From positions 1-35,774 of IMG/VR virus record IMGVR_UViG_3300021961_000011: DNA of 35,774 nucleotides. One strand, given 5' to 3'. The translations under genes were made by a program, and so were the position numbers. The notes under the pieces are model-generated. The model was not told where the DNA came from and ran no database searches. It saw only the letters and a list, made by a program, of their open reading frames with translations. The number at the start of each line of letters is the position of its first letter. Position 1 is the stretch's first letter. Shown here piece by piece: positions 16,817-23,986 of this stretch. Origin of the DNA: a virus.

Positions 16817-17134
16817 ATGACCCGCCGCCGCTACGTCCAGATCAAGGGTGAGTTAGTCGAGATCACTGACGACTATCAGCCCCAAAGACACAACGACTCG
16901 GGCGCCTTGTGGGGCGACCGTAGCTATGACGGTCTGCGGGCGACAGACGGCACCGACATCAGTACGCGCGTCAAGCACCGCGAGTACATGAAGCTGAACA
17001 ACCTGACGACCGTGGACGATTACAAAGAGACATGGTCAAAGGCCCAAGAGGCGCGTGACCGCTACCGTCAGAGTGGTGGCACGTTTAGCCGGCGCGACAT
17101 CGAGCGCGCGATTTCACAACTACAAAGGCGATAA
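16817..17134 (+). CDS. Conserved small protein between portal and scaffold
   Basis: 105 aa. It contains a pattern I know from many short-tailed phages: YVQIKGELVEITDDYQP at the start, then SYDGLRATDGTDISTR and KHREYMKLNNLTTVDDYK, ending in a helical RDIERAISQLQRR. It probably assists head assembly, but its role has not been clearly set. Only GAGAA lies upstream as ribosome site. Its stop is two bases before the scaffold start. Confidence 0.8.
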   Translation: MTRRRYVQIKGELVEITDDYQPQRHNDSGALWGDRSYDGLRATDGTDISTRVKHREYMKLNNLTTVDDYKETWSKAQEARDRYRQSGGTFSRRDIERAISQLQRR

Positions 17135-17136
17135 GC

Positions 17137-18258
17137 ATGAGTGAACCCACGACACTGCGCGATGAGATTGAGGCGGCACTAGACGCGCCTGAACCGCAAG
17201 CGGCACCCGAGCCAGTTAGCGCACCGGAGCCAGTTGCCGAGGCGGCACCGGCACCCGAGCCAACAGAAGCCGAGAGTGCGCCAGCCGAGGCGCGGCAGGA
17301 TCTGAACAGCCTAGCTGAAGAAGAAAAGCCGGAATCTGGCCCGCAGCGCGATGAGCAGGGCAGATTTAAGCCAAAAGAGAAAGAAGAGGGCATTCAGCCT
17401 GGCCCGAAAGCTGGCCCAAAGCAACAAGGCGAGAAAGCGCCGGCATCATGGCGTCCCGATGTGCGCGAGCACTGGGCGCAATTGCCTGAGCCTGTTAGGG
17501 CAGAGGTGCAACGCCTCGAGGTCGAACGTAATCGGGTCTTGCAGGAGTCTGCCGAGGCTCGCAAGGGCTACGACGCAGTCATGAAGACGATTGCCCCGTA
17601 TGAAGGCTTTATTCGGGCTGAAAACAGCAACGCCTTGCAAGCAATAGACAACCTGATGAGCACCGCCGCGCGGTTGCGTACTGGCACCGCGCCAGAGCTT
17701 GCGCAACTGGTGTCAGGGATCATCAATCAGTTCGGGGTTGGTCGGTTTGGCAAGGGCTTTATTGAGATGCTGGACAGCGCCTTGGTTGGCCAGGTGCCGG
17801 CATTGGACCCGCAGCAGGCCGCGCTTGATCAGGTGCTCAATCAGCGCCTGGCGCCAATGCAGCAGATGTTCAACCAGTTCCAGCAGGCCCAACAAGCTCA
17901 AGAGCAACGGGTCACGCAGCAGGCTCAGAACGAGGTCAATACGTTCCTTGAGCGTGCCGAGTTCGGCAATGATGTACGCGAAGAGATGGCCGACATTATT
18001 GAGTCTGCCAGCCGCCGCGGGCAGAACATTTCCTTACTAGACGCTTACAAAAAGGCGTGCATGTTGAACGATAACGTGCGCACGGTAATTTCTCAGCGGG
18101 CCAAAAACCAAGGCGCGCAACAGCAGACGCAGGCTGCGCAGCGGGCGAGATCGGCGGCAGTCAGTGTGTCAGGCGGCGCGCCAGTTGGCGGTCTGAAGCA
18201 AGACCCGACGAATGTCCGTGCAGCAATTGAAGCGGCAATTGTCCAAACCGCAAGATAA
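17137..18258 (+). CDS. Scaffolding protein
   Basis: 373 aa. The N-terminal 100 residues are disordered and rich in Pro, Ala and Glu; the middle is helical (PVRAEVQRLEVERNRVLQES); residues around 235-270 are Gln-rich coiled coil (MQQMFNQFQQAQQAQEQ); the tail is basic and Ala-rich. This low-complexity, helical, acidic-to-basic layout directly before the major capsid gene is typical for capsid scaffolds, which are removed after prohead assembly. AAAGG precedes the ATG. The last codons overlap the region of the capsid promoter. Confidence 0.85.
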   Translation: MSEPTTLRDEIEAALDAPEPQAAPEPVSAPEPVAEAAPAPEPTEAESAPAEARQDLNSLAEEEKPESGPQRDEQGRFKPKEKEEGIQPGPKAGPKQQGEKAPASWRPDVREHWAQLPEPVRAEVQRLEVERNRVLQESAEARKGYDAVMKTIAPYEGFIRAENSNALQAIDNLMSTAARLRTGTAPELAQLVSGIINQFGVGRFGKGFIEMLDSALVGQVPALDPQQAALDQVLNQRLAPMQQMFNQFQQAQQAQEQRVTQQAQNEVNTFLERAEFGNDVREEMADIIESASRRGQNISLLDAYKKACMLNDNVRTVISQRAKNQGAQQQTQAAQRARSAAVSVSGGAPVGGLKQDPTNVRAAIEAAIVQTAR

Positions 18259-18270
18259 TGTGGTTATAAT
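18239..18270 (+). promoter_or_regulatory. Promoter for the major capsid gene
   Basis: A perfect TATAAT -10 box is at 18265-18270, just after the scaffold stop. Upstream, TTGTCC (18239-18244) resembles a -35 box, though the 20-base spacing is long; another sigma factor or an activator could be used. Transcription would begin near 18277 and enter the structured leader. Confidence 0.55.
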
Positions 18271-18276
18271 GACACT

Positions 18277-18451
18277 ACTGGCGGAGAAATCCGCTTGTGG
18301 TGTGCCGTAGCACCAGCAGCCACCGAAAGCTCGCAGGAGACGCCGCAAGGGCGTCCCACCTACGACAATACCGGACTGAATAGGTTCGCGTAGGCGCATC
18401 TGAATAGGTGGGCGCAAGCCCTTTGCCAAACTCAGATGAGGGTTTTCAATC
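18277..18451 (+). ncRNA. Structured 5' leader RNA of the major capsid gene
   Basis: This 175-base untranslated stretch can fold into at least five compatible stems: GCGGA/TCCGC with a GAAA loop (18281-18294); TGGTG/CACCA (18298-18315); GACGCC/GGCGTC with a GCAAG loop (18339-18355); CCTACG (18359-18364) with CGTAGG (18389-18394), enclosing CGGAC/GTTCG (18372-18388); and GGGC/GCCC with a GCAA loop (18410-18421). A competing 8-bp pairing, CCCACCTA (18355-18362) with TAGGTGGG (18405-18412), would break the last stem. CTGAATAGG is repeated at 18376-18384 and 18400-18408. The capsid ribosome site GAGGG follows. I do not recognise a known RNA family. Pairing was worked out by eye. Confidence 0.55.
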
Positions 18452-19426
18452 ATGGCATTTCCGAATGTATCGGACATCGTCGCAACGACGATCCAGAATC
18501 GTTCGCGGCAAATCGCGGACAACGTCACCAAAAACAACGCCATCTTGGCGAAACTCAACCAGCGCGGTAACGTCCGCACCATTTCCGGTGGTAATACCAT
18601 CCTAGAAGAGCTTTCGTTTGCTGAGAACGCAAACGGCGGCTTCTACAGTGGCTATGACCTGCTGCCGGTCGCTGCACAGGACGTCATCTCGGCTGCTGAG
18701 TATCAGATCAAGCAGTACGCAGTCCCGGTCGTTATGAGCGGCCTCGAGATGCTCCAGAACAGCGGCAAAGAGCAGTTCATTGACTTGCTTGAGGCGCGTC
18801 TGAATGTTGCCGAATCGACGATGGCAAACAACCTGTCGTCCTCGATTTACAGCGACGGTACTGGTTCTGGCGGCAAAGAAGTCACGGGTCTGAACGCAGC
18901 CGTTCCGGCTGATCCGACCACTGGCACCTATGGCGGCATTGATCGTGCGACTTGGGCCTTCTGGCGCTCCAAGCTGTACGACTTCAGCACCGCCACTGGC
19001 GGCAATGCAAGTGCAGCCAACATCCAGGCTGGCATGAACAACCTGTGGGCGCAGACCACCCGTGGTTCTGACCGTGTCGATCTGATCGTCATGGACACGA
19101 ACTACTGGAGCCTGTACTTGGCCTCGCTCCAGGCTCAGCAGCGTTTCACCAGCCCCGACACCGGCAACCTCGGCTTCCCGTCCATTAAGTTCATGGACGC
19201 TGACGTGGTTCTGGATGGCGGCATTGGTGGCTATTGCCCGGCGAACACCGGCTTCTTCCTGAACACCAAGTACCTGAAATGGCGCCCGCACAAGGACCGC
19301 AACATGGTCCCGCTGTCGCCAAATCGTCGGTACGCGATCAACCAGGATGCGGAAGTTCAAATCCTGGCTTGGGCGGGCAATCTTTGCGCGTCCGGTGCTC
19401 AGTTCCAAGGCCGCATGCAGAACTGA
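18452..19426 (+). CDS. Major capsid protein
   Basis: 324 aa, beginning FPNVSDIVATTIQNRSRQIADNVT, then a conserved N-terminal helix-strand region, VMSGLEMLQNSGKEQFIDLL, and LIVMDTNYWSLYLASLQAQQRF. The C-terminus SIKFMDADVVLDGGIGG and FLNTKYLKWRPHKDRN are typical for an HK97-fold capsid protein of short-tailed phages. It follows the scaffold and has its own promoter, structured leader and terminator, consistent with the high amount needed for a capsid shell of several hundred copies. GAGGG lies about ten bases before the ATG. Confidence 0.92.
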   Translation: MAFPNVSDIVATTIQNRSRQIADNVTKNNAILAKLNQRGNVRTISGGNTILEELSFAENANGGFYSGYDLLPVAAQDVISAAEYQIKQYAVPVVMSGLEMLQNSGKEQFIDLLEARLNVAESTMANNLSSSIYSDGTGSGGKEVTGLNAAVPADPTTGTYGGIDRATWAFWRSKLYDFSTATGGNASAANIQAGMNNLWAQTTRGSDRVDLIVMDTNYWSLYLASLQAQQRFTSPDTGNLGFPSIKFMDADVVLDGGIGGYCPANTGFFLNTKYLKWRPHKDRNMVPLSPNRRYAINQDAEVQILAWAGNLCASGAQFQGRMQN

Positions 19427-21095: not shown

Positions 21096-22730
21096 ATGCC
21101 ATTGGTTCAGCTTGCTCCCTTCAAGGCCCCGCGAAGGGCCGCCGCCTCTAGCGTCGCGCAGCCTTATGTCGTTCCTGCGCCAACGGGTGGTTTGAACTGG
21201 CGTGATCCGATCAGCGCAATGTCGCCAGCCGACGCGCTGGTGCTGACTAACTTTATCCCTAAGCAGCAGGGCGTTGAACTGCGTCGCGGATACCAAGCGT
21301 ATTCAGATGCTGTGACGGTTGGCGGCGTTGCGCAGTCGGTTGAGTCTGTGTTCGGATATCGAGCACCGAATCCGGCTGACGACAAAGTGTTCATGGCAAC
21401 TGCCGGCAACATCTATGACGTGACTTCTGGCGGCACGCCAGTGGTGGCCGTTACTGGTACTGGCAGCGACGCGGACGAGTGGTGGACGACGCAGTTCTCC
21501 ACGCCGGCAGATACGTTCCTTTTGGCCGTGTCACCTGGTGCTGGGTACTGGACGTACAGCACGACGACCGGGTGGGTTGATCAGACAAATAACATCAACC
21601 CTAGTGGCCCTGGCGGTTCGTCTATTCCGCTGACGGTTCGCACGGTTGCTGTATGGAAACAGCGTGTCTGGTTCACGTTTGAAGAAGAATCGCAGGTTCT
21701 GTATCTGGACACGGTCAACGCAATCACCGGAACAGCGACGTTTTTTCCAATGGGATCGACGCTGCGCAACGGTGGCTATGTCTCTGCGCTAATCAACTGG
21801 ACCGTTGATGCTGGGTTCGGCATTGATGACTATCTAGTGGCGGTCGGCACCGAGGGCGATGTCGGCGTTTGGGAAGGCACAGACCCAACAAGCGCATCGA
21901 CGTTTGGTTTGAAAGGCGTCTGGTACGTTGGCCCAGTGCCTAAGCATGGCACCTACTTCACGCCGTTCGGCGGTGACGTGATGATTGTCAGCGAGTTGGG
22001 CCTGGTTCCCATGTCCAAACTCATCACGGGTCAATACTCGCAGGATGTGCAGTCTGGCGGCCCTGCTTCCAAGATTCAGTCGGTCTTTGCTCCGCTGGTT
22101 CGACGACTACGCGATGAGAAGTTCTTTGCGTGTTTTGTGGTGCCGACCTCCGACGTGCTGGTTGTGAAGTTGCCTGCTGATGGCGGCACTTATCGTCAGT
22201 TCGCGATGAACGTGACGACAGGCGCCTGGTGCCAGTTCTTGGGAATGCCGATGCGCAGCGCGTCTGTCATTGGCGGGCAATTGTATTTCGGCACCATCGA
22301 TGGTCTTGTCTCCAAAGGGTTGTTTGGCAACCTGGACGGCGTTGACTCTGTCGGTGCTGGCGGCACCTACGTTGAGGGCGAAATCCAGACCTCATTTCAG
22401 AACTACGGCACGCCTGCGCAACTCAAGAAATTTGGCATGGCGCGTCCGATCTTTATTGCGACTGCCGCGCCTGCGGTCAAGTTGGTCGTCAATACGCAGT
22501 ATCAATTTAATACTGTCGGCGGCTCGCCGTTCTTCTTCGATGAAGATAACGGCATCTGGGACGCAGGGATTTGGAACACATCCACCTGGGTCGGCCAGAA
22601 TACATATCAGGGTTGGTATGGGACAACCGGGTTGGGTTATTACGGTTCTCTGCGGATGAAGGTGCGCGGGTTGCCGGCAACAGTCTTCACGTCGGCACAC
22701 ATGCTGACTGAAACGGGTGGGGTGATGTAA
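21096..22730 (+). CDS. Tail hub / DNA-stabilisation protein (P22 gp10-like)
   Basis: 544 aa. It is beta-rich with repeated short blades (VFMATAGNIYDVT, VGTEGDVGVWEGTDPTS, LYFGTIDGLVSKGLFGN), as in the tail hub or packaged-DNA stabilisation proteins of short-tailed phages. The N-terminus carries a GGLNWRDPISAMSPADALVLTN segment, characteristic of this family as I know it. It ends with a TAATG overlap with the next gene. A ribosome site GGAG lies in the end of the previous gene. Confidence 0.83.
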   Translation: MPLVQLAPFKAPRRAAASSVAQPYVVPAPTGGLNWRDPISAMSPADALVLTNFIPKQQGVELRRGYQAYSDAVTVGGVAQSVESVFGYRAPNPADDKVFMATAGNIYDVTSGGTPVVAVTGTGSDADEWWTTQFSTPADTFLLAVSPGAGYWTYSTTTGWVDQTNNINPSGPGGSSIPLTVRTVAVWKQRVWFTFEEESQVLYLDTVNAITGTATFFPMGSTLRNGGYVSALINWTVDAGFGIDDYLVAVGTEGDVGVWEGTDPTSASTFGLKGVWYVGPVPKHGTYFTPFGGDVMIVSELGLVPMSKLITGQYSQDVQSGGPASKIQSVFAPLVRRLRDEKFFACFVVPTSDVLVVKLPADGGTYRQFAMNVTTGAWCQFLGMPMRSASVIGGQLYFGTIDGLVSKGLFGNLDGVDSVGAGGTYVEGEIQTSFQNYGTPAQLKKFGMARPIFIATAAPAVKLVVNTQYQFNTVGGSPFFFDEDNGIWDAGIWNTSTWVGQNTYQGWYGTTGLGYYGSLRMKVRGLPATVFTSAHMLTETGGVM

Positions 22731-23986
22731 TGGCTGAACTGACTGCTGATCAGCAGGCTCAAGCAAATCAGTTGCATGGCGCGGTTGGCTGGATTTATCC
22801 AGACACGTCAGACACTGCGTTCTGGAACAACTACTTCAACCCGACGCCGACGCTGACTGCCGACGAGCAGGCCAGCGGAATTTCCATTGGCCCGGCTGAC
22901 TCGAGCTACTACACGCGGCCTTTGCGCAGCGGAGCAAACTACGACACGGTCACGTCTGCGTATCAGGGCATTGGTCGCAGTAATTTTGGTGACGCGCCAA
23001 ATCAGATTGACCAGGAAGGGTTTGATTATTGGTTGAACCAACTGGATAGCGGTGCATTGTCGCCAAACGACTTCCAGTCTACGTTCAATAACAGCGTCAA
23101 TACGGTGCTGTCGCAGAATCCGAATAGCGATGTTTCCAAGTACGTCAGTTCGTACATGGCCGGCGCAAATCAACCCGGTTACGGGTCTGGTCCGTACCAG
23201 TCGAGCTTGATTCAGTCACTGCGCGGCGGATCTCCGGCCGCGCCTGTTTCTCCGACTGTGACGTTGCGCGCCAACAAGGCTAACGCAGCGCCGATTGACT
23301 TTGAAGCGTTTGGCAGCGGTAGCTTAAACAGCCCTGGCATGATTCAAACGGATGGCACTAGCGTAACGCCTGGAACAAAGACTGCTCAGACACCGTTGAC
23401 GAACAGGCCACCAAAGATTGAGACAACGGTTGAGGATTATCTGCCTTACGTTGTTGAGAACGTCAACGACTATCTCGGTTCGCAATCGAACGAAGATTTG
23501 GTCAATGCGGCTTACGAAAGCATTGGCCGCACTGACGTAGGAACAGCCCCGAATCAGATTGATCAGCAGGGCTACGATTACTGGACTGGGCAACTGGACA
23601 GCGGCGCATTAAGCCCAGCCGAGTTTCAACAGGCATTCAGCAACAGCGTGAATACTGTGCTGGATCAAAGCCCAGATGAGCCTGTTTCGCAGTACGTCAG
23701 CGACTACCTTGGCGGGCTAACCAATGACCAGCTAGTGCGCGAGGCGTATGCCGACATTGGGCGTGCTGGGATTGGATCTACTGCGAACACGATTGATCAA
23801 GAAGGCTATGACTACTGGACTGGGCTTCTTGATAGCGGTGTCTCGCCGGAAGACTTCCAAAAAGCGTTCTACGACTCAGTTGTGACGGTGCTTGGCTATT
23901 ACCCAGGCGAAGAGACGACAGCGGCCACAAAGACAGTGCAGCAAACCGCACCGACAACTGGACTTGTTCCTGGTGAAATGCCATGA
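22730..23986 (+). CDS. Virion protein with three DUF4214-like repeats
   Basis: 418 aa. Three related segments lie at about 75-129, 257-312 and 335-389. Each has the pattern AY-IGR...IDQEG-DYW...LDSG-SP-DFQ-F-SV. This resembles DUF4214, a domain often found in surface and secreted proteins where it is repeated. Between repeats 1 and 2 is a low-complexity linker of about 125 residues. It follows the tail hub and may be an internal or tail-associated virion protein. The start overlaps the previous stop (TAATG). Function unknown. Confidence 0.75.
   Translation: MAELTADQQAQANQLHGAVGWIYPDTSDTAFWNNYFNPTPTLTADEQASGISIGPADSSYYTRPLRSGANYDTVTSAYQGIGRSNFGDAPNQIDQEGFDYWLNQLDSGALSPNDFQSTFNNSVNTVLSQNPNSDVSKYVSSYMAGANQPGYGSGPYQSSLIQSLRGGSPAAPVSPTVTLRANKANAAPIDFEAFGSGSLNSPGMIQTDGTSVTPGTKTAQTPLTNRPPKIETTVEDYLPYVVENVNDYLGSQSNEDLVNAAYESIGRTDVGTAPNQIDQQGYDYWTGQLDSGALSPAEFQQAFSNSVNTVLDQSPDEPVSQYVSDYLGGLTNDQLVREAYADIGRAGIGSTANTIDQEGYDYWTGLLDSGVSPEDFQKAFYDSVVTVLGYYPGEETTAATKTVQQTAPTTGLVPGEMP

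Follow-up and report, generated by a model that had tools for sequence, protein, structure and literature searches.

Comparative sequence analysis indicates that the regulatory core of the leader RNA ahead of the major capsid protein (MCP) gene in the window, the whole 35,774-nucleotide stretch of viral DNA analyzed here (IMG/VR record IMGVR_UViG_3300021961_000011), is an anti-SD strand (18325–18332) that pairs with the SD and its spacer, accompanied by recurrent internal loops in which CCA stands opposite A. The leader is a new RNA family that works by a known principle, and it probably controls the timing or amount of capsid protein. With a probability of roughly two in three, we read it as a cis-acting element of translational control whose SD is blocked in the ground state, the balance being shifted through the CCA/A loops. 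Phages make no protein in larger amounts than capsid protein, whose ratio to scaffold is important for assembly. A gate on capsid translation conserved in a large clade of uncultured phages, with relatives in the cultured phages Mx8, Mx9, and BUCT555, would make the control of capsid stoichiometry directly testable.

A conserved leader linked to the capsid gene

The sequence-only reading of this DNA had described a perfect -10 box followed by 175 untranslated bases, and this layout holds: TATAAT (Table 1) precedes an intergenic leader (18277–18451) that lies between the end of the upstream gene at 18258 and the ATG of the MCP gene at 18452. An extended -10 (TGn before the -10 box) is present in 33 of 61 relatives; a consensus -35 was sought at this promoter and none was found. 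The upstream gene occupies a position that is retained in Mx8, Mx9, and BUCT555 and that points to a scaffold function. Further upstream, 16817–17134 codes for a 105–amino acid protein of unassigned function that is retained beside the MCP across the family. In the tail region of the window, 22730–23986 encodes a protein with a DUF4214 domain.

Table 1. Positions in the window of the promoter, genes, and RNA elements of the capsid leader
Feature	Position	Strand	Basis or remark
Upstream gene in scaffold position, 373 aa	17137–18258	+	No family match
-10 box TATAAT	18265–18270	+	Sequence; kept in relatives; predicted start near 18277
P1ext 5' strand CACTAC, between -10 and predicted start	18273–18278	+	Complementary to 18297–18302
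P1, 5'-terminal hairpin, GAAA loop	18281–18294	+	Hairpin of at least 5 bp in 65/66 relatives, sequence variable
P2 hairpin GGUG/CACC, invariant loop start UGC	18299–18314	+	98–100% canonical at three of four pairs
M1 5' strand CAG-CCA-CCG, CCA side of CCA/A loop	18317–18325	+	Invariant in class A; GAG-CCA-CCG in class C
J1, anti-SD strand GAAAGCUC, P0 5' strand	18325–18332	+	Covaries with SD/spacer
M2/P4-P3 hairpin AGG-A-GACGCC..GGCGUC-CCA-CCU, second CCA/A loop	18335–18361	+	P3 covariation; motif scan
P3 with GCAAG loop	18339–18355	+	Pair 18340–18354 covaries, E 0.008
P5 helix CCUACG/CGUAGG	18359–18394 (18359–18364 with 18389–18394)	+	Helix-aligned pairing test
M1 3' strand CGG-A-CUG	18372–18378	+	CUC in class C, where the 5' strand has GAG for CAG
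P6 terminal stem CAUCUGA/UCAGAUG	18397–18438 (18397–18403 with 18432–18438)	+	Present in 66/66
P6b GGGC-GCAA-GCCC	18410–18421	+	Pairs covary, E 0.008 and 0.042
SD (GAGGG) + spacer GUUUUC	18438–18447	+	P0 3' strand is 18440–18447
MCP gene	18452–19426	+	PHROG 9953 major head protein, E 1.2e-118

Collecting MCP relatives from IMG/VR and genome contigs yielded 305 loci. The window's leader belongs to a class, class A, in which the RNA lies ahead of the MCP gene in 66 non-redundant phage contigs (less than 97% identical) and which has the invariant blocks GUGUGC, CAGCCACCG, CCACC, CGGACUG, GGU, and GGC. A covariance model recovers one strong class A copy in each of eight long contigs (window included), always at the MCP, and its search found the RNA absent from the HNH-type contigs and from those contigs of other classes that were searched. 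The leaders of cultured phages whose MCPs are related (BUCT555, Mx8, and Mx9) fall into other classes, and the majority of distant MCP relatives have no long leader. Judged from these sequences, the stems are clade-specific; what recurs across diverged classes is the CCA/A loop and, in several of them, an occluded SD. One class A leader with its MCP (L291) lies on a Brevundimonas MAG contig (JADCBH010000335.1), a possible hint at the host.

The same distribution bears on whether the local promoter might instead produce a trans-acting or packaging RNA similar to pRNA. This would account for the promoter-like element, and the phi29 pRNA likewise has a CCA bulge. Such a role is nevertheless extremely unlikely, given that the leader always lies directly before the MCP, has no second copy in the genome, is absent from HNH-type phages, and includes the SD as part of its structure.

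Mu-gpT-DE and GP20, two phage RNA motifs of Rfam, are structured RNAs beside phage structural genes, but none of the leader classes searched has a match among the Rfam families. At the Rfam 15 gathering threshold, there were no matches in the window or in 13 loci of other classes, and at E ≤ 1 there were none in six class A loci; the best local match was a chance snoRNA at 19 bits against 60. The initial impression that this RNA falls into no recognized class is thereby borne out at both gathering and relaxed thresholds. The candidates of a group I intron and of a HEARO-type element were dismissed, as neither obtained an Rfam score.

The leader folds at −73.2 kcal/mol, compared with −57.1 ± 4.4 for shuffled sequences (z −3.63), and none of 200 shuffles folds as well. 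All the stems named in the sequence-only reading, at least five compatible ones with GAAA, GCAA, and GCAAG loops, exist in the window, and within its own clade covariation is found and the stems are present in the relatives. Against a phylogenetic null built by branch shuffling, only three column pairs covary at E < 0.05, all of them in the model, which excluded the SD-pairing helix P0: P3 18340–18354, P6b 18411–18420, and P6b 18410–18421. P5, whose core ACG/CGU lies at 18362–18364/18389–18391, occurs in 21 sequence versions when aligned by helix and scores 14.0 with its own partner, 11.2 with swapped partners, and 10.0 with shuffled ones. P6 is exchanged whole between branches, being CAUCUGA/UCAGAUG in one and CCACA/UGUGG in the other, and its 3' end abuts the SD in the window and always ends at the SD across relatives. 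The sharing and crossing of strands among several helices explains why RNAalifold, run on the raw MAFFT alignment, returned no more than a partial and weak fold.

A structured leader need not regulate. A 5' hairpin and a compact fold could simply lend stability to an abundant mRNA and keep its ribosome-binding site insulated or exposed, and the abundance of the gene product, the 5'-terminal hairpin of 65 of 66 relatives, and the abutment of P6 on the SD would all suit this. The T7 gene 10 leader, which is also structured, carries a 5' hairpin, and precedes a major capsid gene, enhances translation, whereas the SD of the leader described here is predicted to be blocked. A passive role predicts neither the covarying helix that covers the SD nor the specific, recurrent letters of the CCA/A loop, and we regard it as unlikely.

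Pairing of the SD

In the minimum-energy fold, the leader is closed by pairing of 18325–18332 with 18440–18447 (helix P0), the most informative helix and one that the sequence-only reading had omitted. Across relatives, the anti-SD strand scores 14.6 with its own SD, compared with 11.6 ± 0.3 for permuted partners (P = 2e-4) and 8.2 for shuffled anti-SD strands; these permutations correct for relatedness incompletely, and kinship is addressed by a sliding-window control, in which only the two windows overlapping the SD stand out among 25 leader windows tested as J1 partner (z 10.1 and 6.0), and by a subset of 23 distant leaders, which alone gives J1–SD covariation at P = 2e-4. Since J1 covaries with the SD window and no other, we conclude that the leader sequesters the ribosome-binding site of the MCP through an SD-complementary strand that is kept by covariation. 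Relatives retain P0 with other letters, examples of the strand pairs being GAAAGCUC/GAGCUUUC, AAAUGCUCC/GGAGCAUUU, GAUGAG/CUCAUC, AUGACUC/GAGUCAU, and GAAACUC/GAGUUUC.

Predicted SD accessibility is lowered relative to shuffled sequences in class A (0.11 versus 0.29), class E (0.14 versus 0.31), and class D (0.15 versus 0.30), as well as in class C, and it is 0.00 in the cultured phages Mx8 and Mx9, compared with 0.23–0.27 for their shuffled leaders. It is unreduced in class B (0.47 versus 0.41) and in the HNH-type leaders, two of which (L019 and L121) lie above their shuffled counterparts. Covariation between leader and SD is found in class E, the BUCT555-type, in which the SD is paired over up to 10 bp (P = 3e-4), and in class D (P = 0.009); the same test detected no SD-pairing covariation in classes B and C. 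The BUCT555-type leaders (L082, L245–L258, L262, L265, L271, and L290) carry GGAG-CUNAC-CUCC–like hairpins with conserved GACACC and CUNACC letters, and the 3' arm of these hairpins could alternatively pair with the SD (up to 10 bp). They apparently represent a second switch-like leader, undescribed before.

The regulatory core is not the competing helix of the sequence-only reading, 18355–18362 with 18405–18412. This helix is present in the window and is not conserved, at least 6 bp being available in 23 of 66 relatives and the full 8 bp in two. The repeat of CTGAATAGG pointed out in the same reading fared similarly: both copies are real (18376–18384 and 18400–18408), and 3 of 66 relatives share it. 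Pairing of CCCACC with the loop of P6 was rejected as a conserved switch.

Hairpins that sequester the ribosome-binding site have been described for the T4 late genes soc, e, 25, and 26 and for I-TevI, segB, and mobE (PMC2988022). They resemble the capsid leader in that an upstream strand hides the SD and a local promoter lies beside the inhibitory structure; the capsid leader differs in having an elaborate fold of several helices that a whole phage clade retains. In the window (18271–18302) and in relatives, the bases from the -10 box to the predicted start form a strand that is able to pair with GGUGUG and that shows compensatory changes; this pairing and P2 are mutually exclusive. At this position (P1ext), relatives score 15.4 with their own partners, 13.9 ± 0.21 with swapped partners, and 9.7 ± 0.33 with shuffles, in a run that anchored the window on GATAAT 15 nt upstream, the pairing in the window itself (18273–18278/18297–18302) having been read by eye.

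If the predicted start is right, this strand is carried by read-through transcripts only, which raises the possibility of a switch based on transcript origin. Read-through transcripts, with CACACC between the -10 and the start, would pair it with GGUGUG and displace P2; transcripts from the local promoter, without CACACC, would fold differently and be translated, as for the T4 late genes and I-TevI. We entertain this as a tentative possibility, since the complementary strand covaries and the layout follows the principle described for T4 (PMC2988022). In T4, however, the promoter lies between the two strands, whereas J1 (from 18325) is downstream of the predicted start (18277) and hence present in both transcripts, with only P1ext being lost. 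Release of the SD would therefore not be automatic, and the T4 scheme does not simply apply. The starts, moreover, are predicted ones, and the complementarity could reflect a palindrome at the DNA level.

The CCA/A internal loop and its candidate ligands

An asymmetric internal loop with CCA opposite A, set between Watson-Crick helices and occurring in either order, is common to different leader classes. The window leader holds two such loops, M1 (CAG-CCA-CCG/CGG-A-CUG) and M2 (AGG-A-G../..C-CCA-CCU); the corresponding elements are GAG-CCA-CCG/CGG-A-CUC in class C, AUG-CCA-UCC/GGA-A-CAU in class B, and GUG-CCA-UCG/CGA-A-CAC in class D. Because M1 is invariant in class A, support for its pairing comes from the other classes. 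A scan of 132 diverse MCP leaders found 139 matches in 78 leaders, over half of them from class A and with cross-combinations in class D counted more than once, against 4.5 expected from shuffles (maximum 10); there were 5 matches on the reverse strand and at most 12 for each of 17 other letter sets. In a stricter scan, the loop was found in 80 of 132 leaders, compared with 10 of 121 stretches of the upstream gene and 5 of 131 of the MCP gene. With the recurrent loop, an RNA-binding phage factor can be probed for specifically. A CsrA site (GGA) was rejected as its identity, given that the class D copies of the motif lack GGA.

A known motif with a comparable layout is the C-loop of 23S rRNA, thrS mRNA, and viroids, the 23S example being UCACU/AAA (PMC8983868, PMC8570644). 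As in the published description (PMC8983868), the CCA/A loop has a 3:1 asymmetry and is flanked on both sides by Watson-Crick helices; its long strand begins with C and its short strand contributes A. This candidate C-loop departs from the known ones in its letters (CCA/A rather than CAC/A) and in its repeated use, at least twice in each capsid mRNA leader.

The CCA/A helix lies beside the strand that pairs with the SD or shares bases with it, M1 and P0 having G18325 in common in the window, and this placement suggests a switch or a pseudoknot. In class C, the SD finds its best partner in the CGG-A-CUC(C) strand itself. M1 crosses both P5 and P0, and each of these helices is separately supported. 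In a comparison of nested folds, the energy favors P0 (−81.6 kcal/mol, versus −72.8 kcal/mol with M1 forced).

In the mechanism that we propose, J1 would rest on the SD and spacer in the ground state, with P6 ending at the SD, resulting in poor initiation by ribosomes. M1, M2, and P5 adjoin or cross the SD-blocking helix, and the SD-blocked and CCA/A-held forms may hence alternate or be combined in a pseudoknot. A stage-timed factor, most likely a phage protein, would recognize the CCA/A loops and shift this balance, thereby setting the timing or amount of capsid synthesis, which on the present comparisons is probably gated through these loops. The conserved structure, the covarying SD pairing, the enrichment of the motif, and the position at the capsid gene are computational results; the regulation itself, its direction (ground-state repression with modulation at CCA/A), and the protein ligand are what we infer. 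The original suggestion of a regulatory or stabilizing RNA for the capsid gene survives in that the RNA is conserved, structured, covarying, and functional, with its core relocated to the anti-SD strand and the CCA/A loops.

The nearest regulatory precedent is T4 gene 32, in whose leader a pseudoknot ahead of the ribosome-binding site has been proposed to serve autogenous translational repression (PMC3014915). Both are phage mRNA leaders whose structure controls, or in the case of the capsid would control, an abundant late protein, and the capsid leader may likewise form a pseudoknot. The capsid leader differs in that the SD itself is paired, the gene is that of the capsid, the CCA/A loops are multiple, and there is no A+U-rich tract for cooperative binding. 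Following this precedent (PMC3014915), free capsid protein could bind the CCA/A loops and stabilize the SD-blocked form until assembly consumes the protein. The leader and its motif do stay linked to the MCP family across several classes, including those of cultured Mx8 and Mx9, which would suit autogenous feedback; any protein of the conserved neighborhood would fit equally, however, and the majority of distant MCP relatives manage without a long leader. Because the CCA/A strand of class C is the best partner of the SD, a protein bound to it would in that class release the SD instead of blocking it. Feedback by the capsid protein is, in our view, doubtful.

A small molecule is a far less probable ligand. 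A pseudoknotted fold, invariant unpaired letters, and an SD expression platform would be expected of a riboswitch, but the leader has no Rfam similarity, the gene is structural and not metabolic, and the small internal loop is the only element common to the leader classes. We consider this very unlikely and retain a phage protein as the preferred ligand.

HNH genes in the leader slot

At 14 loci, the RNA is replaced in the leader slot by a gene for an HNH endonuclease of about 195 amino acids. Loci with this arrangement, between the scaffold-position gene and the MCP, bear the labels L019, L062, L064, L080, L121, and L307–L320. The HNH coding sequence keeps AUGCCAUCUACG..GCGU..GAACAUGACG in 14 of 14, in proteins down to about 51% identity, and the CCA/A hairpin that it would form shows a matched change from GCC/CGG to GCU/CAG; in HNH homologues unlinked to the MCP, the hairpin is absent. 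Synonymous conservation over the hairpin region is only slightly raised (0.57 versus 0.51–0.53), and the evidence that a CCA/A hairpin is retained within the HNH coding sequence is hence suggestive.

Collinearity with the HNH gene, over its 3' third, is found for the class B leaders (z 4.5–7.6 for five leaders and about 2.7–2.8 for two), which indicates that one leader class is HNH-derived, class B apparently being an HNH gene turned into leader RNA. The leaders of L079, L175, L178, L201, and L202, taken as the last 240 nt before the MCP, are of this collinear type. An HNH ancestry of the class A, C, and D leaders was rejected for want of a signal (z −1.8 to 1.7), as was the likeness of GGUGUGC..AAGCACC to the HNH start, which is not significant. 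The overlap of leader and coding sequence in the HNH genes, together with an HNH-derived class, outlines a route from mobile gene to regulatory RNA.

Taken to its widest extent, this would mean that an RNA switch that senses protein through repeated, C-loop–like CCA/A sites controls synthesis of the HK97-type capsid protein throughout a large family of tailed phages, with the switch of one branch drawn from a domesticated HNH homing-endonuclease gene. We hold this to be rather improbable as a whole; if true, a coat or assembly protein of double-stranded DNA phages would recognize RNA much as the coat proteins of RNA phages do.

Both kinds of MCP locus, the RNA-type (L018) and the HNH-type (L319), occur on a single contig, IMGVR_UViG_3300047554_000338, which at 71149 bases is about twice the usual genome length and likely represents two phages joined in assembly.
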